From positions 1 to 64,000 of the forward strand of contig JAFXQX010000033.1 in the NCBI GenBank assembly GCA_017526745.1: a stretch of 64,000 nt of DNA, read 5' to 3'. The notes beneath the pieces were generated by a model. That model was not told the DNA's origin, did no database searches, and saw only the letters and a program-made list of their open reading frames with translations. The stretch comes from Lachnospiraceae bacterium (GTDB taxonomy: Bacteria > Bacillota > Clostridia > Lachnospirales > Lachnospiraceae). Below are positions 19,679-36,217 of this stretch, piece after piece. A program made the position numbers and the translations under genes. Position 1 is the first letter of the stretch, and each line of letters starts with the position of its first letter.

Positions 19679-19754
19679 CGATAACAGCACAAAATAACAA
19701 AGGAGCGTCCGCCCCTTGTTTAGTGTGCACATCGATCAGTTACTCGTGATCACG

Positions 19755-21568: not shown

Positions 21569-21622
21569 ACAACATCCGCTTCGCGGATGTCGCCGTGTCA
21601 GGATTGTTACACAATCCTGACA
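21569..21622 (-). repeat. Two-hairpin palindromic element, copy A
   Basis: On the minus strand, a 12-bp stem (TGTCAGGATTGT, loop GTA, inverse arm), a CGGCG linker and an 8-bp stem (ACATCCGC, loop GAA, GCGGATGT) follow in order. A TTGTTTTTAT tail comes next, so the second stem can also serve as a terminator for tRNA-Thr. The element starts exactly 2 nt after the tRNA discriminator base. Copies B (24220) and C (36013) share the architecture. Confidence 0.8.
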
Positions 21623-21624
21623 TA

Positions 21625-21697
21625 TGCTGACGTCGGGAATCGGACCCGAGACCTCCGCACTACCAATGCGGTGCGCTACCTACTGTGCCACGTCAGC
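21625..21697 (-). tRNA. tRNA-Thr(GGT)
   Basis: A full 73-nt cloverleaf on the minus strand. The acceptor GCTGACG pairs with CGTCAGC plus discriminator A. The anticodon loop TTGGTAG gives anticodon GGT, and the T-arm contains GGTCCGATTCC. The 3' CCA is not encoded. Its promoter overlaps the end of hslO. Confidence 0.95.
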
Positions 21698-21710
21698 TAA
21701 ACCGAATGAA

Positions 21711-21739
21711 ATTCTATCACAGGCCAAAGTATTAGTCAA
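21711..21739 (-). promoter_or_regulatory. Promoter of tRNA-Thr, inside the hslO 3' end
   Basis: On the minus strand TTGACT (21734-21739) and TAGAAT (21711-21716) have a 17-nt spacer and lie 14 nt before the tRNA. The -35 box includes the last codon and stop of hslO (ATT GAC TAA). Confidence 0.75.
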
Positions 21740-22655
21740 TACGGGCTTCCTGCAATAAGGTGCGCATCTCGTCGGGTGAGAACATGTATGCTTTATTGCA
21801 GAAGCTGCATTTCATTTCTATGTCTTTTCCCTCATTTATCATTGAGGACAGCTCATCTTTGCCAAGGCTGATCAGGGCCTTTTGGACACGCTCGCGGTTG
21901 CAGTTACATGAAAACTTCACGGGATTTTCGTCCGTGAATTCGACATCATAGCCTTCAAGGATCATTGACAGCATATCGGAAGCAGTATGTCCTTCGTCAA
22001 GGAGAGTTGTGACCGTCGGCATGGATGACAGCCGTGATTCAAGATCGGAGATGATCTTCTCATCCGCACCGGGCATCAGCTGGATCATGAATCCGCCGGC
22101 ATGCTTTACGGTATTGTTCTTCTCCATCAGAACGCCAAGCCCCACGGCAGACGGAACCTGCTCGGAGACCGCATAATAATATGCTATGTCCTCGGCTATC
22201 TCGCCTGTTACAAGCTCAACCTGACCGACATACGGATCCTTGAGGCCAAGGTCCTTGATGACATACAGCGTCCCGTTTCCCAGCGCTCCGCCGACATCTA
22301 GCTTGGATACGGCCCCCGACGGGCCTTCATGAACCTTTGCCGGAAGAATAACGTCCGGTACGAGGGCATATCCCTTAACCTTAACCAGTCCGCTGTCAGG
22401 CTCCGGCGCATTTGCCGTCACCGTGATCCCTTTCATCGGGCCGTCGCCGCGAATCTGAAGCGTTACAAGATCGTCATCACCCTTCATCATAACAGCCATC
22501 ATTGCCGAAGCCGTAAGAGTGCGGCCAAGTGCGGCAGCTGCCACAGGGCTGAGATCATGAGCCATTCTTGCCGCCTCGGCGGTATCTTTCGTATATGCCG
22601 CAAAGGCTCTTATATTTCCTTTTGCCGCCGTTGCGCGGACTATAACATCACCCAT
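21732..22655 (-). CDS. hslO: Redox-regulated chaperone Hsp33 (HslO)
   Basis: A 307-residue Hsp33: an N-terminal chaperone core (SPVAAAALGRTLTASAMM) and a C-terminal zinc redox switch with four cysteines, CNC and CSFC. Oxidation releases zinc and activates holdase activity in the cytoplasm. Length and motifs are normal. AGGATAGG precedes the ATG, which overlaps the end of the fucosyltransferase gene by 8 nt. Last protein gene of the sigH-containing run. Confidence 0.95.
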   Translation of the reverse strand: MGDVIVRATAAKGNIRAFAAYTKDTAEAARMAHDLSPVAAAALGRTLTASAMMAVMMKGDDDLVTLQIRGDGPMKGITVTANAPEPDSGLVKVKGYALVPDVILPAKVHEGPSGAVSKLDVGGALGNGTLYVIKDLGLKDPYVGQVELVTGEIAEDIAYYYAVSEQVPSAVGLGVLMEKNNTVKHAGGFMIQLMPGADEKIISDLESRLSSMPTVTTLLDEGHTASDMLSMILEGYDVEFTDENPVKFSCNCNRERVQKALISLGKDELSSMINEGKDIEMKCSFCNKAYMFSPDEMRTLLQEARID

Positions 22656-23628
22656 GTCCTATCCTGATCCTGTTCTTAAGGCCTCTTACCGCTCTTCTCG
22701 GAAGATAGAGCATCCTGTCCGCCTTTTCGTGGAATCTCGCCTCGTCCTCGTAATATTTCCCCTGATAGATACGGTTTCGCCTTATCGCCGCATCAGGCTC
22801 CTGGGAACATATCCTGTACAGATAGTCCGACAGATAATCGGGCTCAAGGCACTTTTTTGCAAGCGAATCATCCTTTATGATCGGGGCTTTTGCCATCGAC
22901 AGATACAGTCCGTCGTCGGCATCGACCTTTTTTACGTACTCAACGACCGAATCAAACGAGTTAAAATCATGGCAGTTGATGAAACTGTCGGGATTGAACT
23001 CTTTTGCTATATCGGGATTTCCCCAGTATATCGGAACGGTCGCGGAAGCAAAAGCCTCCATGATCTTCTCGGTGGTATAACCGCGGGATGAGCTGTTCTC
23101 AAATGCGATCGAGAACTTGTATCCCCGGGCAAAATCGATCTTGTCCGCAACAGGGCCGCCCACGTTATTCCTGAACTTCCCGCCGCTTGCGATCTCCTTA
23201 TACTTTGAAAGAGAGTCGATCATCACGATCCGCTCTCCTGCCGATACGGCATTGCTGATCACATAATTGCAGAACTTCCTGCCAAGAAGTTCTTCATCGG
23301 TCATCTCATGTTTTCTTCTTGCCAGCGAGCATGCGCGCGGATACAGGATATAATGGGGGAATCTTAAATACCTGTCGTAGAAATCCATCTCGGGAAAGCC
23401 GAGGGCATAATCGACGAGATTAAAATCAGGTGCGATGTTCTCACCCGTATAGAAGATCTTGGCACAGGAATACTTCAGGTGCCTGCGGCCGAATATCGAA
23501 CAGAAAACAAAGTCGGGATCCTCCGAGATCTCAACCTTAAAGTGTTTCTTCAGCGCATCGGTTATGAAATTCTCTTCCGGATCGAAAACGTCCCAGAAGT
23601 CGGTAAATGCGATCTTTATCGTATCCAT
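22648..23628 (-). CDS. GT10 family alpha-1,3/4-fucosyltransferase-like protein
   Basis: A 326-residue glycosyltransferase with the GT10 signature in the C-terminal half: KFSIAFENSSSRGYTTEKI, then ATVPIYWGNPDI. This is the GDP-fucose binding region of bacterial and animal fucosyltransferases. It probably decorates a surface glycan with fucose or a related sugar; the acceptor is unknown. It starts directly after the sigH stop codon and overlaps hslO, an unusual location for a glycan gene, so it may be a later arrival in this operon. Confidence 0.85.
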   Translation of the reverse strand: MDTIKIAFTDFWDVFDPEENFITDALKKHFKVEISEDPDFVFCSIFGRRHLKYSCAKIFYTGENIAPDFNLVDYALGFPEMDFYDRYLRFPHYILYPRACSLARRKHEMTDEELLGRKFCNYVISNAVSAGERIVMIDSLSKYKEIASGGKFRNNVGGPVADKIDFARGYKFSIAFENSSSRGYTTEKIMEAFASATVPIYWGNPDIAKEFNPDSFINCHDFNSFDSVVEYVKKVDADDGLYLSMAKAPIIKDDSLAKKCLEPDYLSDYLYRICSQEPDAAIRRNRIYQGKYYEDEARFHEKADRMLYLPRRAVRGLKNRIRIGHG

Positions 23629-24294
23629 CTACTGCAGTATCTTTCTTACCTTGGTCTTTATCCTTGAAAGTGCGTTATCGGTCGACTTGGCATCACGCCC
23701 GAGTATCCTTGCGATATCAGTGTACTCAAGGCCCGTAAGCCGAAGGTTTAGAACCTTTCGTTCAAAATCACTCAAGCTCTCGTTTATCTTCTGCTCCAGG
23801 ATCTCTGTCTGCTCGCGGTCTATGACCATATCCTCGGGACTCTTTCCGGTCTCGGACAAGAGTTTTTCAAGAAGTGCAGGCCCGTCCGACGAGTCACTAT
23901 CCTTTTCCTCGTCATATATGGATACATACGAGTTAAGAGGGGCATGTTTCTTGCGCTTTCCGGCCTCAACGGCCTTGTACATCTGACGTGAAACGCACAG
24001 GTCCGCAAAGGTGTAAAAACTCGCATCCCTTCCCGCATCATAGTCCCTTACCGCATTGTAAAGTCCTATCATGCCTTCCTGGATAAGGTCCTCCCTGTCG
24101 GCACCGAGTATGAACATGCTGCCCGCCTTTTTGCGGACAAGTTCCTTGTATCTGTCGATGATGATCTCTATAGCCTTTGAATCGCCGTCGCGGAGGGCGA
24201 TTATCAGTTCTTCGTCTGATGTCAGGATGGTATCACCATCCTGACACGGCGACATCCGCAACGCGGATGTTGGTTGTCTGTCCTTATTTTTCAT
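23629..24294 (-). CDS. sigH: RNA polymerase sigma factor SigH-like, with repeat-encoded N-terminus
   Basis: A 221-residue sigma-70 family factor: region 2 (ADREDLIQEGMIGLYNAVRDYD, FYTFADLCVSRQM) and region 4 (FERKVLNLRLTGLEYTDIA). Order after cysS-mrnC-rlmB matches the stationary-phase/early sporulation factor SigH. The start at 24294 is supported by TAAGGA 5 nt upstream and lies 7 nt after the rlmB stop. Residues 8-25 are encoded by a palindromic element (copy B), which pushes the conserved start (SDEELIIALRDGD) back by about 18 residues. The next in-frame ATG, at 24255, lies inside the element and has no ribosome site. Confidence 0.88.
   Translation of the reverse strand: MKNKDRQPTSALRMSPCQDGDTILTSDEELIIALRDGDSKAIEIIIDRYKELVRKKAGSMFILGADREDLIQEGMIGLYNAVRDYDAGRDASFYTFADLCVSRQMYKAVEAGKRKKHAPLNSYVSIYDEEKDSDSSDGPALLEKLLSETGKSPEDMVIDREQTEILEQKINESLSDFERKVLNLRLTGLEYTDIARILGRDAKSTDNALSRIKTKVRKILQ
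24220..24273 (+). repeat. Two-hairpin palindromic element, copy B, inside sigH
   Basis: An 11-bp stem (TGTCAGGATGG, loop TATCA, inverse arm to 24246), a CGGCG linker (24247-24251) and an 8-bp stem (ACATCCGC, loop AAC, GCGGATGT, 24252-24270) then TGG. Arms and linker match copy A except at the inner stem end and loops, with a compensated change in stem 1. The 54-nt element is a multiple of three and is read antisense to its orientation as sigH residues 8-25. Confidence 0.8.
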
Positions 24295-24301
24295 TATGTC
24301 C

Positions 24302-25042
24302 TTACATCAGTCTCTGTCTTACCACCTCATACATCAGAACACCTGCGGCAACCGATGCATTGAGCGAGTCTATATCGCCTTTCATCGGGATAGAGCAGAC
24401 ATAGTCACATTTTTCCTTGACAAGACGGGATACGCCCTCGCCCTCGCTTCCTATCACAAGTCCGACCGGGCCCGTAAGGTTCTGCTCGTACATGCTGACA
24501 CCGTCCATATCGGCGCATGCAAACCAGATCCCTTTCTTCTTCAGGTCATCGATGCATCTGGCTATGTTTGTAACCTTTGCAACAGGTGTATAGTTTAGTG
24601 CTCCCGCGCTCGTTCTTGCAACGGTGGCCGACAGGCCGACCGCACGATTTTTCGGGATGATCACTCCGTGTGCGCCGGAAAGGTTGGCTGTCCTTATGAT
24701 AGCTCCGAGGTTATGAGGATCGTTTATCGAATCGAGCACGATGATAAAGGGGTCCTCTCCCGCCTCTTCGGCCTTTTTGAGTATGTCATCGACCTCAACG
24801 TAGTCGTAGGCGGCGCACTTGGCAACAACGCCCTGGTGATGCCCGCCAGGACACATCACATCAAGCCTGTCCTTGTCGACATACTTTACGGTGATGCCAT
24901 GCTTATTTGCTTCCTTTTTGATCGTATTTATCGGGCCAGGAGCTGCAGAATCGAGTATGAACAGCTTGTCAACCGTCCGGCCCGCCCGAAGCGCCTCAAG
25001 CACGGCATTTCTGCCTTCTATTGTAAGTTCGTCTTTTTCCAT
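24302..25042 (-). CDS. rlmB: 23S rRNA (guanosine-2'-O-)-methyltransferase RlmB/TrmH family
   Basis: A 246-residue SPOUT methyltransferase. The N-terminal substrate-binding domain starts TIEGRNAVLEALRAG. The knotted C-terminal domain carries NPHNLGAIIRTA, LVIGSEGEGVS and SLNASVAAGVLMYE. It methylates a ribose in 23S rRNA or tRNA. I take the ATG at 25042, directly after the mrnC stop (TGATATG); an ATG at 25060 lies inside mrnC. The gene ends 7 nt before sigH. Confidence 0.92.
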   Translation of the reverse strand: MEKDELTIEGRNAVLEALRAGRTVDKLFILDSAAPGPINTIKKEANKHGITVKYVDKDRLDVMCPGGHHQGVVAKCAAYDYVEVDDILKKAEEAGEDPFIIVLDSINDPHNLGAIIRTANLSGAHGVIIPKNRAVGLSATVARTSAGALNYTPVAKVTNIARCIDDLKKKGIWFACADMDGVSMYEQNLTGPVGLVIGSEGEGVSRLVKEKCDYVCSIPMKGDIDSLNASVAAGVLMYEVVRQRLM

Positions 25043-25043
25043 A

Positions 25044-25478
25044 TCAGTTTCCCGAAACATCCGCTGCGATCTTTATTATCTCCAGGACTCGGTCCATGTC
25101 GCCGCGAAGATACAGCCAGCCGATCAGGGCCTCCAGTCCCGTGGCCTTCCTGTAATCCCCGACGGGAGCGTTCTTAGCCACGGTTTGTGATTTTGCGTTC
25201 CTGCCCCGTTTATATATCGCAAGTTCCTCTTCGCGAAGAAGACCCTGCTCGGTAAGATAGTCCGCCGCTTTGGCCTGGCTGACCGCCTTGATGATCTTAA
25301 CCGCCTTGGCATCAAGCCTGTTGGCGCTGCAGTTGCCCGCAAGGACCACCGCTGTCTTGACCACGGCCCCGTATATGCTGTCGCCGATGAACGCGAGCGC
25401 GAGCGGTGAGTATTGGGACGGATCGTCGCCGGTAAGGCCGAATCGCTCTTTAATGCCGTCTATCATGCCAGATTCCAT
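25044..25478 (-). CDS. mrnC: Mini-ribonuclease III MrnC
   Basis: A 144-residue RNase III catalytic domain without a dsRNA-binding domain, involved in 23S rRNA 3' maturation. LALAFIGDSIYGAVV contains the acidic catalytic site, and TGLEALIGWLYL the second acidic motif. The gene overlaps cysS by 16 nt, the usual arrangement in Firmicutes. Confidence 0.94.
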   Translation of the reverse strand: MESGMIDGIKERFGLTGDDPSQYSPLALAFIGDSIYGAVVKTAVVLAGNCSANRLDAKAVKIIKAVSQAKAADYLTEQGLLREEELAIYKRGRNAKSQTVAKNAPVGDYRKATGLEALIGWLYLRGDMDRVLEIIKIAADVSGN

Positions 25479-26869
25479 CTGGCGCCCTCGCGGGTATCCT
25501 TGATCACGACGCCCTTTTCCTTAAGCTCGTCCCTGATGCTGTCCGCAAGCGCAAAATCCTTTGCCTTCTTGGCCTCCGCCCTTTTGGCGATCATCTCTTC
25601 GACATATGCGGCAAGTTCCGGATCGACTGCGGGTGCATTCTCATTTTCGGTCTTCTCCAGTAGTTTGAGGCCGAGCACGCTGTCATAGTCGTTTATTATC
25701 GCGATCTTCGTCGCACCGTCAAGATCAGCCTTTAAAACGTCGTACACAAGTGTCAGTCCCATCGCGGTGTTAACATCGTTGCCTACGGCATCTGCAAACT
25801 TGTCGTGCCATGTCTTAACCAAAGCGTCATCAAGGCTTCCTTCAGCCTTGATGGCAAGGGCCCTGTTCCTGAGCTTTTTGTAGGTGGCAGCTGCCTGGTC
25901 GAGCGCATCGAAAGAGAACACGAGCGGCTTTCTGTAGTGGCTCTGGAGCGTGAAGAACCTGTATGCGAGAGGATCGTAGCCCTTCTCCTCCAGAAGCGAT
26001 ACGGTCAGAAACTCGCCCTTTGACTTGCTCATCTTGCCGGTCTCATCATTTAAGTGATGGACATGGAACCAGTAATTGCACCATTTATGACCCGTGAACG
26101 CCTCAGACTGGGCGATCTCATTCGTGTGATGCGGGAAGATGTTGTCGACTCCGCCGCAGTGAATGTCCATGTACTCGCCAAGATGCTTCATGCTGATGCA
26201 CGAGCATTCAATATGCCATCCGGGGTAACCAACGCCCCAGGGGCTGTCCCACTTCAGGGCCTGGTCTTCGAACTTGGACTTGGTGAACCAGAGGACAAAA
26301 TCATTCTTGTTGCGTTTATTCTCATCCTCGGAAACATCGTCCCTTACGCCCACCATAAGTTCTTCTTCGTTCTGGTCGCCGAAGACAAAATAATTGTCAA
26401 GTTTTGATGTGTCAAAATAGATGTTCTCGCCGGCCTTATATGCATAACCCTTTTCGAGGAGCACTTCTATCATATGGATGAACTCATCGATGCAGTTCGT
26501 TGCGGGCTCAACGACATCGGGAGTCTTGATGTTAAGCTTTGCGCAGTCCGCAAAGAAAGCGTCCGTATAAAACTTTGCGATCTCCATGACGGTCTTGTGC
26601 TCGCGTTTTGCGCCCTTTAGCATCTTGTCCTCGCCGGTATCGGCATCTGATGACAGATGTCCCACATCGGTTATGTTCATGACACGCTTAACGTCATAGC
26701 CGCTAAACCTTAAGAGTTTTTCGAGCACGTCCTCCATGATGTAGCTTCGAAGGTTTCCGATATGCGCATAATGGTATACGGTAGGTCCGCATGTGTACAT
26801 GCCGACCTTTCCTTCTTCGTTCGGGACAAACTCCTCGACTTTTCTTGTAAGTGAATTGTATAACTTCAT
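25463..26869 (-). CDS. cysS: Cysteinyl-tRNA synthetase
   Basis: A 468-residue class I synthetase. It has the zinc-binding Cys in MYTCGPTVYHYAHIGN (HIGN replaces HIGH), the C/H pair in WHIECS, and KMSKSKG for catalysis. The C-terminal helical domain is present. AGGAG lies before the ATG. An 18-nt gap separates it from ispF. No T-box leader is visible, so regulation is probably through the upstream nadE promoter. Confidence 0.96.
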   Translation of the reverse strand: MKLYNSLTRKVEEFVPNEEGKVGMYTCGPTVYHYAHIGNLRSYIMEDVLEKLLRFSGYDVKRVMNITDVGHLSSDADTGEDKMLKGAKREHKTVMEIAKFYTDAFFADCAKLNIKTPDVVEPATNCIDEFIHMIEVLLEKGYAYKAGENIYFDTSKLDNYFVFGDQNEEELMVGVRDDVSEDENKRNKNDFVLWFTKSKFEDQALKWDSPWGVGYPGWHIECSCISMKHLGEYMDIHCGGVDNIFPHHTNEIAQSEAFTGHKWCNYWFHVHHLNDETGKMSKSKGEFLTVSLLEEKGYDPLAYRFFTLQSHYRKPLVFSFDALDQAAATYKKLRNRALAIKAEGSLDDALVKTWHDKFADAVGNDVNTAMGLTLVYDVLKADLDGATKIAIINDYDSVLGLKLLEKTENENAPAVDPELAAYVEEMIAKRAEAKKAKDFALADSIRDELKEKGVVIKDTREGARWNLA

Positions 26870-26887
26870 TGGAACATCTCCTGTCTG

Positions 26888-27604
26888 TTACTTCTTTTTA
26901 TTCTTCCTGTCTTTCTTTTTGAGCTGCTTCTTATCAGGATCTTTCCTGCCGGATCCTTTCCTGCCGGTCTTGTCCTTTTTTCCGGTTCCGGACGTTTTCT
27001 CCGCCGGGCTGATCTTCTCTGTATCATTCGGCAATACCCTCGGACAGCCTGACATATTGCCCGAAGGATCGCAACAAGGTCTGTCACAGCATGCAGGCGG
27101 ACAGCATTCTGCAGCGGAAGATGTCAGTTCATCAACCGATGACAGGATGCACGCTGCCTGGGCGCTCATGCCTTCACCGCCTCCGGTAAACCCAAGGCCT
27201 TCCTCCGTCGTTGCCTTAACATTTACCTGGGATATATCGATCCCGAGAGTTGCTGCGATGTTTTCGCGCATTGTATCGATATAAGGCCGCATCTTGGGGC
27301 GCTCTGCGATTATCGTGGCATCAATGTTCTCTATGATATACCCGTTCTCCGACAGAAGCTCTCCGACGCATTCCAGAAGTTTCAGTGATGAAATGCCTCT
27401 GTACCTCTCATCCGTATCCGGAAAATGCTTCCCGATATCACCAAGGGCAGCCGCCCCGAGAAGGGCATCCATTACGGCATGGAGCAGCACATCCGCATCC
27501 GAGTGGCCGAGAAGCCCTCTCTCATAAGGGATCTCAACTCCTCCAAGGATAAGCTTCCTGTTTTCCACTATGCGGTGTACATCATATCCTAATCCGATCC
27601 TCAT
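26888..27604 (-). CDS. ispF: 2-C-methyl-D-erythritol 2,4-cyclodiphosphate synthase IspF with Cys/Lys-rich tail
   Basis: Residues 1 to about 158 are a normal IspF of the MEP isoprenoid pathway: zinc ligands D8 and H10 (GYDVHR) and H42 ([10 protein letters not shown]), and ERPKMRPY. Residues about 159-238 are an extra tail. It has seven cysteines in doublets (CC at 167, 172 and 177, and C187), followed by a strongly basic Lys/Arg/Gly stretch to the end. The enzyme is usually 155-165 residues. The tail is not recognised; metal or nucleic-acid binding is possible, but it may be a weakly selected read-on. The stop lies 18 nt before cysS. Confidence 0.92.
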
Positions 27605-27622
27605 CAGTGTTCTCTCTTTCTT

Positions 27623-28360
27623 TCAGGCCTTTACTTCCAGTCCCGGATCAAACGACGGCATCAGCTGCAGTTTGAAGAGGTTCTGACGGTGCTTGCGGTC
27701 AATGAGTTCCTTTGTGGCCGGATCATCGATCTCGCCCGTACGTATATATCTGTCGAGCACCGCATATGTGAATCCGAGATTGTCCTCGTCGGTCTTGCCG
27801 CACAGTCCGTCACTCGGAACCTTGTCTATAAGCGCATCGGGAAGCCCGAGGAATCGCCCTATCTCCTTGACCTCCGCTACAGTCAGATGACTTAAGGGTG
27901 AAAAATCACCTGCCGCATCTCCGTACCTGGTCGAATATCCTACCCAGTCCTCAGACAGATTACAGGTGTTTACAACTCTTCCGTTATTGCTCTGGGATAC
28001 TGCATATACAGTGGCCATCCTGATCCTGGGCCCGAGATTGATCCTGCTTTGATCCGACAACTCCTGCGGGATCGCCGCAACCAGTGCATCATATGATCCC
28101 TTTATGTTCACGGTCACGTTCCGGATCCCAAGATGATCGCACAAAAGGTGCGCCATATCGATATCCGGCTGCTCTCCGTTTGGCATAAGGACACCTATGA
28201 CCCTGTCCTTTCCGAGAGCCTCTGCGCAGACCGCAGCGGCAACGGATGAATCCTTACCGCCCGATATCCCGAGCACGGCATTGCATCCCTTACCGTTTTC
28301 CTCAAAAAAATCCCTGATCCATGCGACACACTCATCCGTCGCTTTCTTTACATCAAACAT
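27623..28360 (-). CDS. nadE: NH3-dependent NAD+ synthetase NadE
   Basis: A 245-residue amidating NAD+ synthetase. It has the ATP pyrophosphatase P-loop SGGKDSS, then NLSEDWVGYSTRYGDAAGDF, and a late KVPSDGLCGKTDE. It lacks a glutaminase domain, so ammonia is the nitrogen donor. AAAGGATG lies before the ATG. It is the first gene of the run nadE-ispF-cysS-mrnC-rlmB-sigH-GT10-hslO. Confidence 0.94.
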   Translation of the reverse strand: MFDVKKATDECVAWIRDFFEENGKGCNAVLGISGGKDSSVAAAVCAEALGKDRVIGVLMPNGEQPDIDMAHLLCDHLGIRNVTVNIKGSYDALVAAIPQELSDQSRINLGPRIRMATVYAVSQSNNGRVVNTCNLSEDWVGYSTRYGDAAGDFSPLSHLTVAEVKEIGRFLGLPDALIDKVPSDGLCGKTDEDNLGFTYAVLDRYIRTGEIDDPATKELIDRKHRQNLFKLQLMPSFDPGLEVKA

Positions 28361-28384
28361 AACCCCATCCTTTCAGATCAACAT

Positions 28385-28410
28385 GCCTTGTCATTATACA
28401 TTAACAAGGC
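28385..28410 (-). promoter_or_regulatory. nadE -10 box flanked by an inverted repeat (candidate operator)
   Basis: GCCTTGT (28385-28391) and ACAAGGC (28404-28410) form 7-nt inverted arms around a 12-nt centre. On the minus strand the centre contains TATAAT (28393-28398), about 33 nt before the nadE ATG. A repressor bound here would cover the -10 region. No convincing -35 box is visible. Confidence 0.4.
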
Positions 28411-28416
28411 CAAAAA

Positions 28417-28448
28417 TGGAACAGTGGGGACGCCCCCCCACTGTTCCA
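28417..28448 (-). terminator. GGGGACG-type palindrome acting as flagellin terminator
   Basis: TGGAACAGTGGGG and its inverse flank a short GC centre, giving a stem of about 14 bp. On the minus strand it is followed by ATTTTTGG, so it fits a Rho-independent terminator 14 nt after the flagellin stop. Its TGGAACA arm and GGGGACG core place it in the same family as the repeats at 51.2-52.4 kb. Confidence 0.75.
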
Positions 28449-28462
28449 CTGTTTCATTTTTA

Positions 28463-29854
28463 TCAGGATAATAACTGAAGAACGCTCTGGGGATTCTGCA
28501 TTGTCTGCGAGAGCATGGCCGATCCGGCCTGTGAAAGGATGTTTGCAGCGGTAAGCTTAAGCATTTCCACAGACATATCGGTATCCCTGATCCTCGACTC
28601 TGCTTCGGTCAGGTTTTCAGACTTGTTGTTATTGTTATCATAGGAATGCTCAAGACGGTTCTGGAAAGCACCGTAGGCACTGCGCATGTCACTGACTCTT
28701 TCAAGTGTCATGTCTATCTGCGCTATAGCCCCACGAGCAGCCGACTGGGTACTGACATCAACGTTATCAACGCCCAGAACAGTCGCATTCATACGGTATG
28801 TTTCTATATACTCGCAATCATCGGTTATATTGCTGCACTGGATACGAAATGTGTTGGTGATATCAGCAGAATATATGCCTGTCAGCGATTTACAGTCTAT
28901 CGCTCCGGATTTGTAGGAATTGGTATAACGGGTTGAATAATATGTTTTTGCAGCAGTCTCACTGGGCTGAGTATCGTTTGCATATATGATCAGTCCCTTT
29001 CCATCATCGGTTTTTTTCATGGTATTGGAATGGCTTACAGCTATACCATTCGGATTGGTACTGTATGGTCTCCCTGCAGGTTGATTACGATTAACAAATT
29101 CATATACCCTGTTAACCACCTCTGCTCCACTTGTGCATCCACTGATATCGACCGAATAGTAGTGATGCTGACCTGCTCCCAGATTTGTTGCCGAAGACGG
29201 AGTACCGTCTGTCGTAAATTTGAAATCAAATACTTCTCCGCACGACTGGCTGCAATTAAACGAAAAACCGCCACCGTTAAGCCTGTTCACGTTATACTTC
29301 GTAATATTGGAAAAATCAATCGATGCGGACGAATGCCACTGGCCGTTTATGTTTATTGCTTCACTCAGATACCCCTTATCTGCTCCATCACACCCCACGA
29401 GTTTGGTGATCTTCTCACCGTCAACATCACCCGTAATATCATCCAGTATATGCATTGTATTGAATTCAGTGCTCTTTCCGATCCTCGTGATCTCAGCCGA
29501 CAGCTCATTTATCTCAGACTGTATCGCTGCCCTGTCGGCAGCTGTATTTGTTCCATTTGCCGCCTTTATCGAAAGTTCTGTCATGCGATGAAGCATACCG
29601 TGTACCTCGGCAAGTGCGCCGTCGGCTATCTGCATGACACTGATCCCGTCCTGGATATTGTCAGAGCCCTGGTTCATACCCCTTATAAGTGATCTCATTT
29701 TTTCGGAGATAGTAAGACCGGCTGCGTCATCTGCAGCACTATTGATCCTGTATCCGGAAGAAAGCTTCTCCATAGACTTCTTCTGAGAAGCACCGGTTAT
29801 ATTGAATTGCCTCTGCGCATTCATTGCGCCAAGATTATTGACTACGGAAAGCAA
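28463..29854 (-). CDS. Flagellin with cysteine-containing central domain
   Basis: A 463-residue flagellin. The conserved N-terminal D0/D1 helices (SSGYRINSAADDAAGLTISE) and C-terminal helix (ILSQAGSAMLSQTMQNPQSVL) are intact, so it should polymerise into filaments. The central 150-370 region is variable and holds seven cysteines (for example CSQSC, SGCTSG, DDCEY), unusual for a flagellin. The start is a TTG immediately after an in-frame TGA, with GAGGG 7 nt upstream. It has its own sigma-D promoter and terminator, and it follows the flagellinolysin gene. Confidence 0.9.
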   Translation of the reverse strand: MLSVVNNLGAMNAQRQFNITGASQKKSMEKLSSGYRINSAADDAAGLTISEKMRSLIRGMNQGSDNIQDGISVMQIADGALAEVHGMLHRMTELSIKAANGTNTAADRAAIQSEINELSAEITRIGKSTEFNTMHILDDITGDVDGEKITKLVGCDGADKGYLSEAININGQWHSSASIDFSNITKYNVNRLNGGGFSFNCSQSCGEVFDFKFTTDGTPSSATNLGAGQHHYYSVDISGCTSGAEVVNRVYEFVNRNQPAGRPYSTNPNGIAVSHSNTMKKTDDGKGLIIYANDTQPSETAAKTYYSTRYTNSYKSGAIDCKSLTGIYSADITNTFRIQCSNITDDCEYIETYRMNATVLGVDNVDVSTQSAARGAIAQIDMTLERVSDMRSAYGAFQNRLEHSYDNNNNKSENLTEAESRIRDTDMSVEMLKLTAANILSQAGSAMLSQTMQNPQSVLQLLS

Positions 29855-29941
29855 TCAAGTTCCCTCTCGATAAGCGTGTTTCCTTTATCGGGATCCTTCC
29901 CAATCGCGATCCGCATCCTTGTGGATCAACTTACATAATTT

Positions 29942-29968
29942 ATATCGGTCATCACAATAAAATCATTA
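29942..29968 (-). promoter_or_regulatory. Sigma-D (sigma-28) promoter of the flagellin gene
   Basis: On the minus strand TAATGATT, 11 nt, then ACCGATAT, close to the flagellar consensus TAAAGTTT-N11-GCCGATAA. It lies about 90 nt before the TTG start, in the gap after the flagellinolysin gene. Confidence 0.75.
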
Positions 29969-29977
29969 GAAAAAGAA

Positions 29978-30014
29978 AATGAAACAGCAGGAACTTTCCC
30001 CACTGTCTCATTTA
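29978..30014. repeat. Degenerate palindromic repeat at the flagellinolysin 3' end
   Basis: AATGAAACAG and CTGTCTCATT form imperfect arms around a GGAACTTTCCCC centre, overlapping the stop codon of the flagellinolysin gene. Arm and core resemble the TGAGACA/TGGAACA family. On the minus strand a T-rich stretch follows, so it may act as a weak terminator. Confidence 0.5.
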
Positions 30015-31964
30015 CTGAAGAAGCTGCAGTACATTCTGCGGTGTCTGCATCGCCTGTGCAAGCATTGCGTTGCCTGCCTGGATCAGGATATTTGATTTGG
30101 TATAGTTGACCATTTCTCTGGCCATATCGGTATCTCTGATGAGAGACTCGGCAGCTGTCGTATTTTCGACGATATTGTCAAGGTTTGCGATCGTATGCTC
30201 CAAGCGGTTCTGCGTAGCACCGTAATATGATCTTACAGCCGAAATCCTTGCATCAGCTTTCTGTACAAGACCTATCGTATTTCTGGCACTGTTTATCGTT
30301 GATACATCCATTTCCCTGTTGTCGAACAGGGATTCTACGGAAATGTTGTACTGGTTCACGCGGATCTGCTGCTCTTCTTTGTTTGCAGCACCGGCCTGAA
30401 TTATAAAGCCGTTGCGGTCATTTCCTTCGCCACCGCCACCGCCGCCGGTTGACGGAAGACTCTCGGGAAAAGAAAAGCCTGTACCAAAAGCATTTGAATA
30501 CCACTGGTTGTCTTTATTAATGTTATAACTGCCATACGAACCGGATGGACTGGCAAATATCGCATCTTCACTCTGGTTTAATGCACCAAGCACCGATCCT
30601 GCACCGCCGGTACCCCTTGCCGCTAAAAGATCATGCATAAATGTGACTGTATCGGCATCTCCGCCGCTGAATCTGGTCTCAAAATCGGAAACGCATGTAT
30701 ATTTGCCACCGGTCACAGTATTGATCGCATTATCAAGTATCGTGGAACTGTTCGATCCTTCGGTTCCGATATTATTCGCTATCTGTGTGAACAGATTATC
30801 AAGACCTTTTGCGATATTTGTGCTGTTTACAGCTGTCTCGCCGCTTGCCAGCTGTCCGAGATACATAGCTGCCGCATAGCCGGCACCGTATGGCATTGTC
30901 TTCAGTTGTGAAACATATGACTTTATCTCTTCATCCGTTGCGGAAGGTGTGATCTCATAGCTCATCCAGCCGTTGTCACCGCTTGATGTCTGCGCTGTAC
31001 CTTCCTTAAACCATTTGGGAAATGTTCCGAGCATACCGGATGTGAGCGTATCATCCATAACAAGGTGCGTCATCTCATGTGCGATCGTTGCGGCAAGGTC
31101 AGCCTTCTCGGCCGCTGTCATCGTATCAAACTTATCAACCGGATAATCTGCCGTATCGATCCACATCTTGTAAGATGTCACTGTGCTTGTGGAATTTGAC
31201 GAGATCATCATACTTGCAGTCGCAAGCGTACCACCTTTTGCCTGAGGACTCATCTCCAGGCCTATCTGGACATTTCCTGTTGATGCCCTGTTAAACAGGT
31301 TCGGATAAGCCTGTGCAAGCTTACTTACAGCCGATGAAGCAGCACTTACGACAAAATCCGCCATGGAGGAATTCTTGATCGAATCCGGATTTTCCGTTCC
31401 TCTCGCCTGGATCTTATCGTTTGTTTCCGATGCGATCTTATTGCCTTCCGCATCGATAAACTCAAGCTCATATATCCTGTTTCCTGCGAAAACGGTCCTG
31501 CCGCTCGCCTTAATCGCCCCATCAACAGCAGTCTGCGGGTTTAATCCCCCATCAGGGAAAACGCGCAGATCATTAAATACCGCCGACTGGTGTACTCTGT
31601 CGATCTCTTCGGATATCTGTGCAACTTCCGCCTGCAGAGCCTGTCTGTCAGCATCGGTATTTGTAGCATTTGAAGCCTGGATCGAAAGCTCGGTGCAACG
31701 TTTTAACATGGCCTGTACTTCGTCCAGCGCACCGTCCGCTATCTGACAGAAGGATACGCCATCCTGCGTATTTGAAGAAGCCTGTGTCAGTCCCCTGATC
31801 TGGCTCCTCATCTTCTCCGAGATCGTAAGGCCTGCAGCATCATCAGCGGCACGGTTGATCTTATAGCCGGAAGAGAGTTTCTCGGACGATTTACCTTTAA
31901 TGGTGGTTGAAAGGCCGAGCATTCTATTCGCATTCATTGAAGAAAGGTTATGCTGTACTATCAT
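30012..31964 (-). CDS. Flagellinolysin: flagellin with inserted zinc metalloprotease domain
   Basis: A 650-residue flagellin whose N-terminal (1 to about 150) and C-terminal (about 545-650) polymerisation domains are normal. The central region contains a zinc protease: HEMTH at 296-300 (two His ligands and catalytic Glu297) and a third likely ligand, E321, in FKEGTAQ. A Gly-rich hinge (about 507-516) follows. Proteolytic flagellins of this layout are known as flagellinolysins, exposing many protease copies along the filament. The gene lies 12 nt after a zinc-ribbon gene and shares its sigma-D promoter. GGGAGA precedes the ATG. The substrate is unknown. Confidence 0.9.
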   Translation of the reverse strand: MIVQHNLSSMNANRMLGLSTTIKGKSSEKLSSGYKINRAADDAAGLTISEKMRSQIRGLTQASSNTQDGVSFCQIADGALDEVQAMLKRCTELSIQASNATNTDADRQALQAEVAQISEEIDRVHQSAVFNDLRVFPDGGLNPQTAVDGAIKASGRTVFAGNRIYELEFIDAEGNKIASETNDKIQARGTENPDSIKNSSMADFVVSAASSAVSKLAQAYPNLFNRASTGNVQIGLEMSPQAKGGTLATASMMISSNSTSTVTSYKMWIDTADYPVDKFDTMTAAEKADLAATIAHEMTHLVMDDTLTSGMLGTFPKWFKEGTAQTSSGDNGWMSYEITPSATDEEIKSYVSQLKTMPYGAGYAAAMYLGQLASGETAVNSTNIAKGLDNLFTQIANNIGTEGSNSSTILDNAINTVTGGKYTCVSDFETRFSGGDADTVTFMHDLLAARGTGGAGSVLGALNQSEDAIFASPSGSYGSYNINKDNQWYSNAFGTGFSFPESLPSTGGGGGGEGNDRNGFIIQAGAANKEEQQIRVNQYNISVESLFDNREMDVSTINSARNTIGLVQKADARISAVRSYYGATQNRLEHTIANLDNIVENTTAAESLIRDTDMAREMVNYTKSNILIQAGNAMLAQAMQTPQNVLQLLQ

Positions 31965-31976
31965 CCCGTCTCCCGC

Positions 31977-32372
31977 CTAATCCCACATTCCCGCAATTTC
32001 TGCAGTCATTTTGCCGTTACATTTGGGGCACAAAAGAGAGTTCATCCGTGCCTTATCGTTATCATCTATAAGCATACAGTTATTGCCGCACCTGCATGTT
32101 GCAGCCACAGTAGTATTTTCTTCATTATTCATGATGCTAAAAGTGGGGATTTCAATATAGGACCTGCAAGAGCTGCAGTATCCGATCATCTTACGATATG
32201 ACCAGCGATATCCCTTATCCGATGCCGGAAGGATCCTTCTGATACGCTCTGCCGATACTTCGTCAAAATATCCGAGGACCGTATCAAGCCGGTTATCAGC
32301 CATTCCATGTCCGATACCAAGCTCGTAAGAATTACCGCAGTCATTGCATTTAAGACGGATAGTTTCGCCCAT
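31977..32372 (-). CDS. Uncharacterised zinc-ribbon protein upstream of flagellinolysin
   Basis: A 131-residue soluble protein with four cysteine pairs: CNDC near residue 9, CSSC near 66, CRCGNNC near 93 and CPKC near 115. These could form two zinc ribbons. I do not recognise the family. AAGGA lies 6 nt before the ATG, and a near-consensus sigma-D promoter lies about 80 nt upstream, so it is co-transcribed with the flagellinolysin 12 nt downstream. This suggests a flagellum-linked role, for example an export, assembly or protease-control partner, but nothing in the sequence decides it. Confidence 0.75.
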   Translation of the reverse strand: MGETIRLKCNDCGNSYELGIGHGMADNRLDTVLGYFDEVSAERIRRILPASDKGYRWSYRKMIGYCSSCRSYIEIPTFSIMNNEENTTVAATCRCGNNCMLIDDNDKARMNSLLCPKCNGKMTAEIAGMWD

Positions 32373-32450
32373 TTCTCATCCTTAATCAATAAGCGCTTAT
32401 ACTCTGGGCTCCGTCCCAAAAGCGGTACACATCCATGCATACCACTATGT

Positions 32451-32477
32451 ATATCGGATGATATTGTGGAAACTTTA
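32451..32477 (-). promoter_or_regulatory. Sigma-D (sigma-28) promoter of the zinc-ribbon/flagellinolysin unit
   Basis: On the minus strand a perfect TAAAGTTT, 11 nt, then TCCGATAT, matching the flagellar consensus at all -35 positions and six of eight -10 positions. Upstream, at 32499-32519, lies an AT-rich palindrome (TGATTTATTT / AAATAAATCA) which may be an operator or the terminator of the preceding gene. Confidence 0.82.
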
Positions 32478-32543
32478 TACTTTTGTCACAAAATGATGTG
32501 ATTTATTTCAAATAAATCATATGTCGAGGTAAAGTGTGATAAT

Positions 32544-34130
32544 TCACTTATAAACGATCGTGTAATTCGGATATGTGATATCCCCGAGGAAACCTTCTGT
32601 CGCAAGATATGCCGTGATATGTCCCAGTTCGTTGTCTATCAGATATACTGTGTTTCCGGACAGATCCAGTTCATCGGGCATCATCCACTCCACGCCGTTA
32701 AAACTCCTGTCCTGGGGCTCATTATCCCTGAAAAAATCATACGGCGACGTTTCTGTATAAAGCGCCACAGACAGATGCTTCATCCATCCGTCATTCATCA
32801 TCGCAACCACCGGTTTCCCGTTTGCGATCCTCTTTGCTAGTGCGGCTGCTTCTCCGGCCTGAAGGTCACAGCCGAGGCTGTCGCCGATATCGTATGCATC
32901 AGCTATAAGTCCGACATGAGAATAAAAATATCTTGAGAACAGCACAAACGGTATGATGTACGCGATAAAAACCGCAGCAATAAAGACCTTCTTCCACTTT
33001 ATCTTATCGAACGCTGCCTTGATCCCATATACGGCAAACAGAAGATATACCGGGAATATCCCGTTTATCCTGTTGATATTCGGCTCCCTTATGAACAGAT
33101 AGAATATACGGGATACGACATAATACATCCAGACGAACAGCCACGGATCCATAACCCTGGCCCTGATGCTCTTTATGACTGCTGCTGCTGAAGCTGCCAT
33201 GCCGATCAGGATAAAGGGTATCGAGACATAATACATGGTACCGAAACGCGGATCTGCATCGTATGCCTGATGATCCGCCACATATGTGAACCTGAAGGAA
33301 TCTTTCAGATTCACTATGATGTTTGACGCTGATATCTCATCAGCCCTCCAGTGCGGGGATCTCCAGAAATCAACAAGTCCCATGAACGAGAAAGGCTCCA
33401 ATGCCCCCATCATAACAAGCTGCTGCACAAACAGGGGTATTCCGAGAAGAACAAACGGGATCCCGGCACAAAGAGCATTCTTAAGCGTCAGTTTCCTGTA
33501 TGCGAGAAGTGCAATAAATGTAAGAAGCAGAAATATCGGTACAACGACATATGCCATGGAGTAGGTATACAGTGACAGACCCCAGAAAAGGCCCGCAAGA
33601 AAATAGAAGACCGGCTTATCCGAGGCGATCGCATGCATCTGGAAATACATGGAGATAATAACAAAGCTCATAAACAGATATGCTTCCAGTCCCCAGTGCT
33701 CACTCATCATAAACACCGGCATGACCGTCATCAGTGCCAGTGCTATAGCTCCTGCCCAGCGGTCAAGCATCTGCCTGACAAGAAAAAACAAAGATGCAAA
33801 CGCTCCCAGGGCACATATGACTGCCGGAAGCCTGAAGTTGAATATGGAGATCCCTCCAAGTTTGATCGGAATGATCGCAAGATACGTATAAAGCGCATTC
33901 TGGCCTTCACCAAAGCACCTGAAATAAACAGGAAAATGCATCTGAAACTGATCCACACCATAATCACCCAGGCAGACCGCATCATAAAACGCACCCAGTT
34001 CATCGATATGCATCCTGTGCTGTCCGAACGGAACATCATCAAGTCTGAAGAGCCTTGTGCCTATGAACAAAACAGATACTGAGATAATCAGAAGAGCAAA
34101 GATCAGTTTTTGACGTTTATCATTTTCCAT
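32544..34130 (-). CDS. GT39-like membrane glycosyltransferase
   Basis: A 528-residue membrane protein of the GT-C fold. A signal-anchor helix is followed by a loop with HIDELGAF (acidic residues typical of the first GT-C loop) and EGQNALYTY, then about ten more membrane helices and a C-terminal extracellular part. It is expected to transfer a sugar from a lipid carrier to an outside acceptor; donor and acceptor are unknown. AAGGAG lies before the ATG at 34130; a longer reading frame to 34205 overlaps the neighbour. It resembles the gene at 56436-58103 in both the N-terminal motif and the C-terminal ITAYL-EGFL region. Confidence 0.75.
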   Translation of the reverse strand: MENDKRQKLIFALLIISVSVLFIGTRLFRLDDVPFGQHRMHIDELGAFYDAVCLGDYGVDQFQMHFPVYFRCFGEGQNALYTYLAIIPIKLGGISIFNFRLPAVICALGAFASLFFLVRQMLDRWAGAIALALMTVMPVFMMSEHWGLEAYLFMSFVIISMYFQMHAIASDKPVFYFLAGLFWGLSLYTYSMAYVVVPIFLLLTFIALLAYRKLTLKNALCAGIPFVLLGIPLFVQQLVMMGALEPFSFMGLVDFWRSPHWRADEISASNIIVNLKDSFRFTYVADHQAYDADPRFGTMYYVSIPFILIGMAASAAAVIKSIRARVMDPWLFVWMYYVVSRIFYLFIREPNINRINGIFPVYLLFAVYGIKAAFDKIKWKKVFIAAVFIAYIIPFVLFSRYFYSHVGLIADAYDIGDSLGCDLQAGEAAALAKRIANGKPVVAMMNDGWMKHLSVALYTETSPYDFFRDNEPQDRSFNGVEWMMPDELDLSGNTVYLIDNELGHITAYLATEGFLGDITYPNYTIVYK

Positions 34131-35865
34131 CAGGTATGCTCCTTTTCTTATTGGAAAGCTTCGAAATGATACTGCACCCCGACAGAAGATAAGAAATACA
34201 TGCAATAAATGTCAAGGCTGAGACTATTTCCGAGATCCTCCAGAAGAGCGGTTCGCGCCAGTATACGTGAAGTATCCCCTCATAATTTGCCGGAAGGAGC
34301 ACGCCCACTGTACGGTTTCCTCCGTCATGTATCTCAAATACCTTCGACGGATCCTCAACATCCGTCGCATAATAGTACGGATAGTTGAACACCGGCAACT
34401 GGATCCAGCCGTACTCCGGTCCCGTCACACATGCTATGAGAAAATCATTGCTGTCGCGTGAGAGCACCTCCATACTAAGCATTCCTTCATGAACTATACC
34501 GAGCGGCAGATCGTCCACAGTCGTATTCTCCAGGCGAAAATCCATTGCATAGTATTCCCAGACGCCCAGGTCCTGTGTATCGACAAAATCCGCTCTCTTT
34601 TCATAGGAGATGGAATAATAGCACAGCTGGGCAACATTGAATACGCAGAAAATGCATACCGCCGCAGCGCAGACATACCTTACGGCCGAAGATCTTGAAA
34701 CGATAACGAACATATCTCCGGCAAGCATCGACATAAACACAATGGCAAATGCCAGATATCTCATGGGAAATTCAATTGCGGTAAGTATCCCGCCAAGCAC
34801 CGGGACATTATCTTCGATCGCATTCCACGGAAAATACGCTGAAGACATGACCAAAAGGACAAGCGCAGCAACCGTTTCGAATACTATACGCTTATCAATA
34901 CCTTTCTTTTTTATCAGAACGAAAACGCAGTATCCTATAGCAGCTATAAGAACAAGCACAAGGACCGGCCCGGGTGTCTGCTGTATCGAGCCTCCGTTTG
35001 TACCTCCGAACGGATTACAGATAAAATCAAACAGATCAGCAAGTGTTGGTCCCGCACCTTCTATACTGTTCTTTTTCTGAAGTGCAAAAGCGATGCCGGC
35101 ATTAAGATACGTATCCAGAAAGGGAATAATGAAAAATGCGGCCAGGAATATCATCAGTATCCCCGAGGCAACAATACTTCCAAACTGTCTTATGCGCTGT
35201 CCCCTGATACCGAAAAGAAAAACGCTTATCGGTGCAAATAATGCCAGTACCACCACAAGCATACTCGTCGTAAGAGTATGGGAACAGATCACGGCAAGAA
35301 ATGCCAGGGCCAGGAGCACCGTGTATCTCCTGCGATTTTTGCTGTCAGCGGCCTTGATGATCAGATAGATAAGAGCTGCTATTGCCGGGAAAAAGGTTAT
35401 GGCAAGCGTTTCGCCTATCGCCGATCTGACATAGGCGTCAACAAGTCTGTAAGACGATGCCGCATATGCTGCAGTGGCGATCACGGGCGCCCACCCCTTG
35501 TTGAAAACCCTGAATGAAAAATACGCGATAACTACCGTAGCAGTGTTCACAATGAGCATGAACAGGCGGAATGATGTCATGACCGAAAATCCCAGTTTGC
35601 GGAACACGGCACCAATATACAGAAAGATATCCCCATACAATATCGATACGGGGTATCCGTAGCCGTTCATCCAGCCGGACTGCATGCGGACTGGAAGATT
35701 CCTGAAAGACACGTCCTGCCTGATCCCCTCGATCCTCTGAAGATGGAACAGCAGGTCATGGCCCTTGGCCATACTCATGAACAATACAGGCCAGGATATC
35801 AGTATCACAATCGCACAAAGCGCCGCAAATCGAAGGCGGCTATTCGTTTTTTCATCAAATTGCAT
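34120..35865 (-). CDS. Large multispanning membrane protein, GT-C/YfhO-like
   Basis: A roughly 581-residue protein with about twelve membrane helices. The first extracytoplasmic loop contains KGHDLLFHLQRIEG and GYGYPVSILYGD, as in a family of GT-C-like proteins annotated as 6-pyruvoyl-tetrahydropterin-synthase-related or YfhO-like. The C-terminal third is a soluble domain outside the membrane. I take the ATG at 35865 because longer starts (to 35919) would overlap the tRNA-Val promoter on the other strand; AAGGA is somewhat distant. It overlaps the GT39-like gene by 11 nt, so the two are co-translated. Confidence 0.7.
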   Translation of the reverse strand: MQFDEKTNSRLRFAALCAIVILISWPVLFMSMAKGHDLLFHLQRIEGIRQDVSFRNLPVRMQSGWMNGYGYPVSILYGDIFLYIGAVFRKLGFSVMTSFRLFMLIVNTATVVIAYFSFRVFNKGWAPVIATAAYAASSYRLVDAYVRSAIGETLAITFFPAIAALIYLIIKAADSKNRRRYTVLLALAFLAVICSHTLTTSMLVVVLALFAPISVFLFGIRGQRIRQFGSIVASGILMIFLAAFFIIPFLDTYLNAGIAFALQKKNSIEGAGPTLADLFDFICNPFGGTNGGSIQQTPGPVLVLVLIAAIGYCVFVLIKKKGIDKRIVFETVAALVLLVMSSAYFPWNAIEDNVPVLGGILTAIEFPMRYLAFAIVFMSMLAGDMFVIVSRSSAVRYVCAAAVCIFCVFNVAQLCYYSISYEKRADFVDTQDLGVWEYYAMDFRLENTTVDDLPLGIVHEGMLSMEVLSRDSNDFLIACVTGPEYGWIQLPVFNYPYYYATDVEDPSKVFEIHDGGNRTVGVLLPANYEGILHVYWREPLFWRISEIVSALTFIACISYLLSGCSIISKLSNKKRSIPDGK

Positions 35866-35885
35866 CGTTTTCAAATCACTTTTCC

Positions 35886-35914
35886 TTGACAATGCCACTT
35901 CTGTCTTATATAAT
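35886..35914 (+). promoter_or_regulatory. Consensus promoter of the tRNA-Val/tRNA-Met unit
   Basis: TTGACA at 35886-35891 and TATAAT at 35909-35914 with a 17-nt spacer: a perfect sigma-A promoter. It ends 23 nt before tRNA-Val. Confidence 0.92.
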
Positions 35915-35937
35915 TTCAAATGTTCTGCAAAGAACTG

Positions 35938-36010
35938 GGGATCTTAGCTCAGCTGGGAGAGCATCTGCCTTACAAGCAGAGGGTCATAGGTTCGAGCCCT
36001 ATAGGTCCCA
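35938..36010 (+). tRNA. tRNA-Val(TAC)
   Basis: A 73-nt cloverleaf. GGGATCT pairs with AGGTCCC plus discriminator A. The anticodon loop CTTACAA gives TAC, and the T-arm is GGTTCGAGCCC. CCA is not encoded. The palindromic element copy C begins 2 nt later. Confidence 0.95.
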
Positions 36011-36012
36011 GA

Positions 36013-36088
36013 TGTCATGAGGTGGCACTTGCGAAGCAAGTGACGGAGTCCTGATGACACGGCGACGTTCGGCGAAGCCGAATGTTGG
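36013..36088 (+). repeat. Two-hairpin palindromic element, copy C
   Basis: TGTCAT pairs with ATGACA at the outside (36013-36018, 36054-36059), enclosing an inner hairpin CACTTGC GAA GCAAGTG. The CGGCG linker (36060-36064) and a 9-bp stem ACGTTCGGC GAA GCCGAATGT (one G-T pair) then TGG follow. Layout, linker and outer bases match copies A and B, while the stem sequences differ with compensating changes. It lies between the two tRNAs. Confidence 0.7.
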
Positions 36089-36101
36089 TTTACAATCTTC
36101 A

Positions 36102-36136
36102 GTAAGGAATCCCCACTGGCGTGGGTCACTCCTTAC
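36102..36136 (+). repeat. Third hairpin between tRNA-Val and tRNA-Met
   Basis: GTAAGGA pairs with TCCTTAC and inside it CCCAC with GTGGG around TGGC. It lies 7 nt before tRNA-Met. It may be a processing signal in the tRNA precursor; no T-run follows. Confidence 0.55.
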
Positions 36137-36143
36137 AACATCT

Positions 36144-36217
36144 GGCGAGGTGGCTCAACTGGCTAGAGCGTCCGGTTCATACCCGGGAGGTTGAGAGTTC
36201 AAGTCTCTCCCTCGCTA
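36144..36217 (+). tRNA. tRNA-Met(CAT)
   Basis: A 74-nt cloverleaf. GGCGAGG pairs with CCTCGCT (one G-T) plus discriminator A. The anticodon loop TTCATAC gives CAT. The elongator form is likely, but a lysidine-modified Ile tRNA cannot be ruled out by eye. Its last 19 nt overlap the 3' end of the opposite-strand membrane protein gene. Confidence 0.9.

Follow-up and report, generated by a model that had tools for sequence, protein, structure and literature searches.

The three palindromic copies described here (A, B and C) belong to a family, T1, that we consider, with a probability of about 0.7, to be a genus-restricted, non-autonomous mobile palindromic repeat of the BOX/RPE/REP kind. The window, a stretch of 64,000 nucleotides, is part of a 2.6-Mb draft genome of a Lachnospiraceae bacterium (G000:C43), which we compared with 36 other genomes of the genus. 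The features of the window on which the argument draws, including copies of a sister family, T2, recognised with the model R2, are the following:

19750..20034, minus strand: cobalamin riboswitch with a T2 copy in its variable arm (Rfam match)
19839..19927, minus strand: T2 copy in the cobalamin riboswitch (R2 match at 19877-19927, the rest by eye)
21569..21622, minus strand: T1 copy A; stem-loop 1 (21596-21622), CGG linker, stem-loop 2 with the CGAC/GTTG foot (21570-21592), then a T run
21625..21697, minus strand: tRNA-Thr(GGT), host feature of A (ARAGORN)
23629..24294, minus strand: sigH ORF, 221 aa; residues 25-220 match SigH, and residues 8-25, approximately, are read from copy B
24220..24273, plus strand: T1 copy B; stem-loop 1 (24220-24246), stem-loop 2 (24250-24272)
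35938..36010, plus strand: tRNA-Val(TAC), host feature of C (ARAGORN)
36013..36088, plus strand: T1 copy C, long form; stem 1 with an internal loop (36013-36059), stem-loop 2 (36063-36087)
36098..36140, minus strand: degenerate T2 copy, identified and delimited by eye; 2 nt separate its TG edge from the tRNA-Met 5' end
36143..36218, plus strand: tRNA-Met(CAT), downstream of C (ARAGORN)

All three copies are present at these coordinates and on these strands, and they share the two-hairpin layout that a sequence-only reading of the window had proposed. Of the details of that layout, the two hairpins stand; the linker, given there as CGGCG, shrinks to CGG, with stem 2 taking in the foot CGAC/GTTG, and stem 1 of C proves to be longer (47 nt, with an internal loop). 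None of 200 shuffles folded as well as A, B or C (0/200 for each; z of -7.3, -6.0 and -4.9, respectively). The 12-mer TGACACGGCGAC, searched with no mismatch, occurs at three places in the window, which are exactly A, B and C, and at ten places in the genome. When the window was scanned against Rfam, only the cobalamin riboswitch and three tRNAs passed the gathering score, and A, B and C matched no known RNA family at that score.

The reading that A and C begin 2 nt after tRNA-Thr and tRNA-Val is exact by ARAGORN, the gap being 2 nt both between tRNA-Thr and the first base of A (21622) and between tRNA-Val and the first base of C (36013). A promoter-like TTGACA-17-TATAAT at 35886-35914 goes with tRNA-Val(TAC), and a terminator-like site at 36223-36247 goes with tRNA-Met(CAT). 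Copy A coincides with a terminator-like site of its own (21594-21568; 0.3 expected by shuffles), from which we infer that it also resembles the terminator of tRNA-Thr. Copy B is situated between two genes, where, in antisense orientation, it provides in-frame sequence for the first codons of the sigH ORF (the start codon of which is a mechanical guess); relatives have a different sequence at the position of the sigH N-terminus where copy B sits.

T1 elements consist of A/T, then TG-stem1-CA, CGG and CGAC-stem2-GTTG(G), and mostly measure 54-76 nt. A 3' tail, TTGTRAATC, follows GTTGG in many copies of relatives, and we excluded it from the T1 core because it is missing in most G000 copies. A covariance model (R1), built from a seed of nine gap-free copies, gave 135 matches at E<=1e-3 in 15 of the 37 genomes of the genus, with 14 matches in the own genome, reverse self-matches of the palindromes included. 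At least 12 T1 copies reside in the own genome, where 12 matches at 12 places, A, B and C among them, lie below 5e-6. Among 397 genomes sampled from the family (334 genera; E<=1e-7), T1 was found only in the own genome and in one other member of its genus; among 398 sampled from the phylum (E<=1e-5), only the own genome matched. Both samples were searched under filters that are stricter than that of the genus search and lose weak matches. Named genomes, scanned with a short pattern, yielded 50 stretches; 19 of these carry the title Lachnospiraceae, several of them from the rumen, and the remainder, titled Mycobacterium, Pantoea and the like, may match so short a pattern by chance. Carriage of T1 or T2 by phages was rejected, as one pattern of each family found 0 viral contigs with either. 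Among the papers listed by our searches of the open-licence literature, none dealt with the T1 family. We file T1, so far known from a single genus of gut Lachnospiraceae, as a new family of an already known kind, that of BOX/RPE/REP-like palindromic repeats, with which it was compared by description.

For the counts that follow, 88 of the 135 R1 matches were used, with cut-offs of about 38 bits (which just admits C) and 45 bits; weaker matches and reverse self-matches were left out, L128 (39.6 bits, also beside tRNA-Met) being among those omitted. Merging of L043 and L063, copies of other genomes with element and near flanks identical, reduced the 88 to 86. Placement counts rest on 82 copies, after L163 (a near-duplicate of L144), L165, the second match at L065 (uncertain at its 5' end) and one member of the L104 tandem pair had been dropped, and the counts of upstream bases and of the foot rest on 80, L059 and L002 also being left out. 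The start of L059 was shifted by 10 nt to the visible stem end.

Covariation was assessed on 36 distinct copies among 38 gap-free 54-nt copies with GCGAC or GCTAC at columns 30-34. In this set, GCGAC (30-34) and GTTG (50-53) are invariant, which is partly a matter of choice at columns 30-34, since the filter dropped a 39th gap-free copy, L133, with GTCGAC there; across 80 copies, GCGAC is kept in 78 (not in L133 and L150) and GTTG in 79 (not in L047). The foot CGAC/GTTG under hairpin 2 includes a G-T wobble, and, with the foot included, 97.5% of cells pair in the 36 copies. Both sides have changed in 15 of 22 pairs, and 104 compensated cells stand against a shuffled mean of 26.7, a level reached in 0/500 shuffles; with slid partners, which served as a control, covariation was far lower. 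Even the outer stem TGTCA/TGACA is swapped for TGACT/AGTCA and others in some copies.

The mispairs tell which strand matters. On the element strand, the 36 copies hold 37 G-T against 2 A-C (18 others), and all symmetric T1 hairpins hold 46 G-T against 5 A-C (30 others), a count made without two variable stem 1 pairs and without the fixed wobble, in which the other mispairs are uninformative on strand. Some of these changes are common by descent, so that independent mispair events are fewer than counted and the p-values are too small. A cruciform would accept G-T and A-C equally; thus, a single strand, be it DNA or RNA, is what matters. Of the earlier proposal that compensating stem changes preserve an RNA or cruciform structure, the compensation is upheld (15/22 pairs, 0/500 shuffles), while the cruciform as the selected form was rejected (G-T 46 vs A-C 5).

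The sister family T2 is represented in the cobalamin riboswitch of the window by a copy composed of stem 1, the linker CCGCGAG, stem 2 and GGACGTCC; at the same tRNA positions as T1, other species have hairpins with the linker CCGCGAG and the tail GAGCGTCC. At E<=1e-5, R2 found T2 in 21 of the 37 genomes of the genus, with 14 in the own genome and one in the window; the cobalamin riboswitch that carries this copy still scores 80 bits. Mispairs in T2 amount to 29 G-T and 0 A-C (10 others), counted in 39 of 54 R2 matches after removal of duplicates and weak ones, a set in which 16 of the 39 are loci chosen for other reasons; among the 23 copies found by R2 in the same set, six dock at a tRNA. 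In five species (L263, L265, L266, L067 and L305), T2 was also seen by eye a few nt from the 5' end of an FMN riboswitch, on the opposite strand.

Placement of T1 beside tRNAs is polar. In 16 of the 82 copies, a tRNA is found 1-4 nt away from the TG edge, and in none (0/82) does one come within 6 nt of the GTTGG edge. Less than one adjacent copy is expected by chance at intergenic fractions from 5% to 100%, an estimate in which these fractions are assumed and the tRNA number of G000 is applied to all genomes. The 16 cases represent about eight tRNA loci, several of which are common to different species, and are not all independent. Ten of them share the strand of the tRNA and adjoin its 3' end, in eight cases at a distance of exactly 2 nt; the remaining six adjoin the 5' end from the opposite strand. 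The sequence-only reading had suggested an element that targets tRNA 3' ends. Adjacency to tRNAs does exceed chance by far, but the 3' ends are not the target as such, since 6 of the 16 cases are antisense at 5' ends and 66 of the 82 copies lie elsewhere, with others at stop codons, palindromes and riboswitches. Likewise, the covariance-model search proposed there did bring further copies (14 matches in the own genome, 135 in the genus), covariation and an enrichment at tRNAs, albeit one that is not specific for 3' ends. Among the flanks of 30 tRNA genes of G000, viewed by eye, a T1 or T2 copy opens 11 of 60, two at 3' ends and nine at 5' ends, with degenerate or truncated copies among them, and the T2 copies beside G000 tRNAs are antisense at 5' ends in 8/8 cases (by eye). 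With 11 of 60 flanks occupied, mostly on the 5' side, docking is common to T1 and T2 and not specific for tRNA 3' ends. It reflects either a true choice of site or survival in short spacers; the 2-nt spacing and the tRNA polarity favour the former.

At protein genes, the picture is less sharp. Within -5..+22 nt, CDS-like ends accompany the TG edge in 24 of 81 copies and the other edge in 1 of 78, with some ORFs uncertain and at least three of the 24 ends doubtful (L055, L064 and L070). At 10-33 nt, such ends are found for the other edge in 21 of 78 copies and for the TG edge in 7 of 81; the former fit a short tail in the element or short spacers, so that the polarity is weaker than 24 vs 1. 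Both edges are near neighbours, and short spacers may explain part of the CDS-end polarity. The Pfam profiles of PrmA, PTA_PTB, DUF6062, an ABC permease and an aspartate aminotransferase are complete or nearly so at the TG edge, and T1 thus stands at the natural gene end in those genes; in several copies, the stop codon is supplied by T1 itself. Outside the GAGACA group (71 copies), TG is preceded by A in 59 copies, by T in 11 and by G in one. A general rule by which T1 inserts 3' of a hairpin found no support: among the 56 copies outside tRNA and GAGACA sites, a stem of at least 6 bp ends within 4 nt upstream in 4, against 1.6 expected by shuffles, and stems just downstream occur in 2, against 2.1 expected.

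It is also important to note that T1 is often part of larger composites, beside GAGACA palindromes or inside CGCTC repeats, and may travel as their passenger. GTCTCA is found on both sides in four of eight GAGACA-associated copies (L021, L030, L034 and L047), which are one composite subfamily. Identical T1 elements occur at two places in G013 (L064 and L075), though within similar composite repeats. At these two loci and at L138, L023, L134, L137 and L142 (G013, G004), T1 is seen in a larger composite with CGCTC-rich arms and a further TGTCA-like hairpin. At L018 (G000:C34), a RAYT-like Y1_Tnp with a C-terminal helix-turn-helix (3518-3847) is flanked by GAGACA...GGGGACGG...TGTCTCA palindromes and a partial T1 stem 1.

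The probable mobility of T1 is supported by site polymorphism among relatives. In ten compared genomes, the spacer from tRNA-Val to tRNA-Met measures 3 nt (TAT) in G013 and holds T1 in G000, G006 and G014, and the remaining genomes have a different sequence there, mostly hairpins; C and its G006 counterpart have an identical stem 2 and a different stem 1. The variable loop of the FMN riboswitch contains T1 in G002 and G033 and none in G022, G014 and G026; the two riboswitches with T1 score 97-99 bits under an Rfam model that leaves this loop free. In a loop of a ManC-like protein, T1 is present in frame in G036, G002, G013 and G004, and the loop is short (YGYIIP...FKEKP) and T1-free in G020, G026, G028 and others. 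Two further states of the ManC-like gene were observed: in G006 (L236), an inverted GAGACA palindrome pair lies in frame in the loop bearing T1 in other species, and in G000 (L234, G000:C43:68283-69596) there is a possible T1 deletion scar between short ATGT repeats. Other species differ at the tRNA-Thr site, which bears either hairpins that belong to different families or a terminator whose stem is T1-like. Many T1 copies share their site in several species, which also fits an old insertion with vertical descent. Since no target-site duplication was seen in 71 copies (mean longest match 3.79 vs 3.61 shuffled, sd 0.12), insertion is read from the comparison of sites, and its ends are approximate.

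Such evidence induces us to propose that a putative enzyme would recognise T1 as a folded single strand, most likely as ssDNA during replication and possibly as an RNA intermediate. Recognition would proceed via the conserved foot CGAC/GTTG and the shape of the stems, and the TG edge would be joined to an A/T base. Copies would survive where they are harmless, namely at mature tRNA ends, stop codons, riboswitch variable loops and a protein loop, and in transcripts T1 would amount to passive hairpins. It is tempting to go further and to see in T1 and T2 two arms of one mobile system, the putative enzyme of which would read strand shape and foot and join the TG edge after A/T beside structured RNA ends or stop codons; we offer this extension tentatively and with considerable doubt. 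If it is true, the stem would be free to drift under pairing alone, and the identity of the repeat would be kept as structure and not as sequence.

Other explanations deserve weighing. T1 might be a functional RNA 3'-end element, with hairpins selected for the processing, stability or termination of tRNAs or mRNAs and inherited vertically. Strand-specific pairing fits RNA, 24 of 81 copies lie behind a CDS-like end on the same strand, 10 of the 16 tRNA cases are on the tRNA strand and copy A is terminator-like. However, copy B and six of the tRNA cases run antisense to the gene beside them, which speaks against RNA processing, another suggestion of the earlier reading, as the general purpose of T1; copies are also found within the FMN riboswitch and coding sequence, the tRNA-Val/tRNA-Met site is empty in the relative G013, and the T2 copies beside G000 tRNAs, judged by eye, are antisense at 5' ends in all eight cases. 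We hold this explanation to be unlikely. We would give even less credence to the idea that T1 copies are REPs moved by an IS200/IS605-type RAYT (a Y1 transposase, PF01797). RAYT and IS200/IS605-type Y1 transposases do read single-strand folds, a property that suits the present case, and a single Y1_Tnp gene, which encodes a C-terminal HTH, is present in the own genome, with GAGACA palindromes and a partial T1 stem 1 in its flanks. Those flanks fit the GAGACA palindrome better than T1, and upstream of the edge there is no fixed target tetranucleotide but mainly A/T at -1. Moreover, Y1_Tnp was not found in seven of the eight genomes with at least ten matches (G002, G004, G006, G013, G022, G033 and G036), of which G002 and G036 are 99% complete and the others 70-89%. 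The candidate was rejected because Y1_Tnp presence, with several genomes incomplete, does not track T1 copies.

Passive spread through recombination or template switching between existing hairpins (e.g., terminators), with no dedicated enzyme, would be consistent with the hairpins of different families, or the terminator with a T1-like stem, at the tRNA-Thr site of other species, and with C and its G006 counterpart sharing stem 2 and differing in stem 1. We deem it very improbable, given that the foot bases are conserved, that T1 stands in the FMN and ManC loops where relatives show no such hairpin, and that outside tRNA/GAGACA sites a stem lies just upstream in 4 of 56 copies, with 1.6 expected. 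Overall, a mobile palindromic repeat is the reading of T1 that we prefer, and T1/T2 hairpins are seen in riboswitches, between tRNAs and in coding sequence, the host feature showing no visible loss.

Finally, we would like to compare T1 with known systems. BOX of Streptococcus pneumoniae is described as small modular interspersed repeats with strong RNA folds, regarded as parasitic, which in 36 cases contribute the stop codon of a gene at its very 3' end and are combined with T box riboswitches in one case (PMC3049150). By this description, T1 is like BOX in being a small repeat with a strong fold, in supplying stop codons and in its riboswitch placement. Unlike BOX, T1 was found in its own genus only, the phylum sample of 398 genomes giving the own genome alone; a short likeness between the BOXA1R primer and the linker region of T1 was noted by inspection only. 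RPE is described as palindromic, fused in frame in protein genes and also present in RNA genes such as those for tmRNA and RNase P RNA (PMC2229807). T1 is comparable to it as a palindrome that lies in frame in the ManC-like gene (four species) and in sigH (B), and in the FMN riboswitch (two species). By the same description, RPE measures 105-146 bp, has terminal inverted repeats and belongs to Rickettsia, whereas T1 has two unlike hairpins, no such repeats and hosts in another phylum.

REP/BIME and CGTC-tagged repeats are described as short hairpins that bear a fixed tag and mostly follow coding regions, though some lie in genes, the CGTC repeats being without a known transposase (PMC3733652). 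Set against that account, T1 has neither a GTAG nor a CGTC tag in the 36-copy alignment, where the conserved bases are GCGAC and GTTG; it has two hairpins per unit, and Y1_Tnp does not follow its copies. Membership in a REPtron was rejected, PF01797 not being found in seven of eight genomes with at least ten matches and the one in G000 being flanked mainly by GAGACA palindromes. T1 was likewise rejected as a MITE, its ends being different (TGTCA vs GTTGG) and 71 copies giving no duplication signal. T1 bears on the spread of palindromic repeats that lack a known enzyme, CGTC-REPs among them, and its natural replicates, filled and empty sites, tRNA-end polarity and strand-specific signal make a direct test of single-strand recognition feasible.
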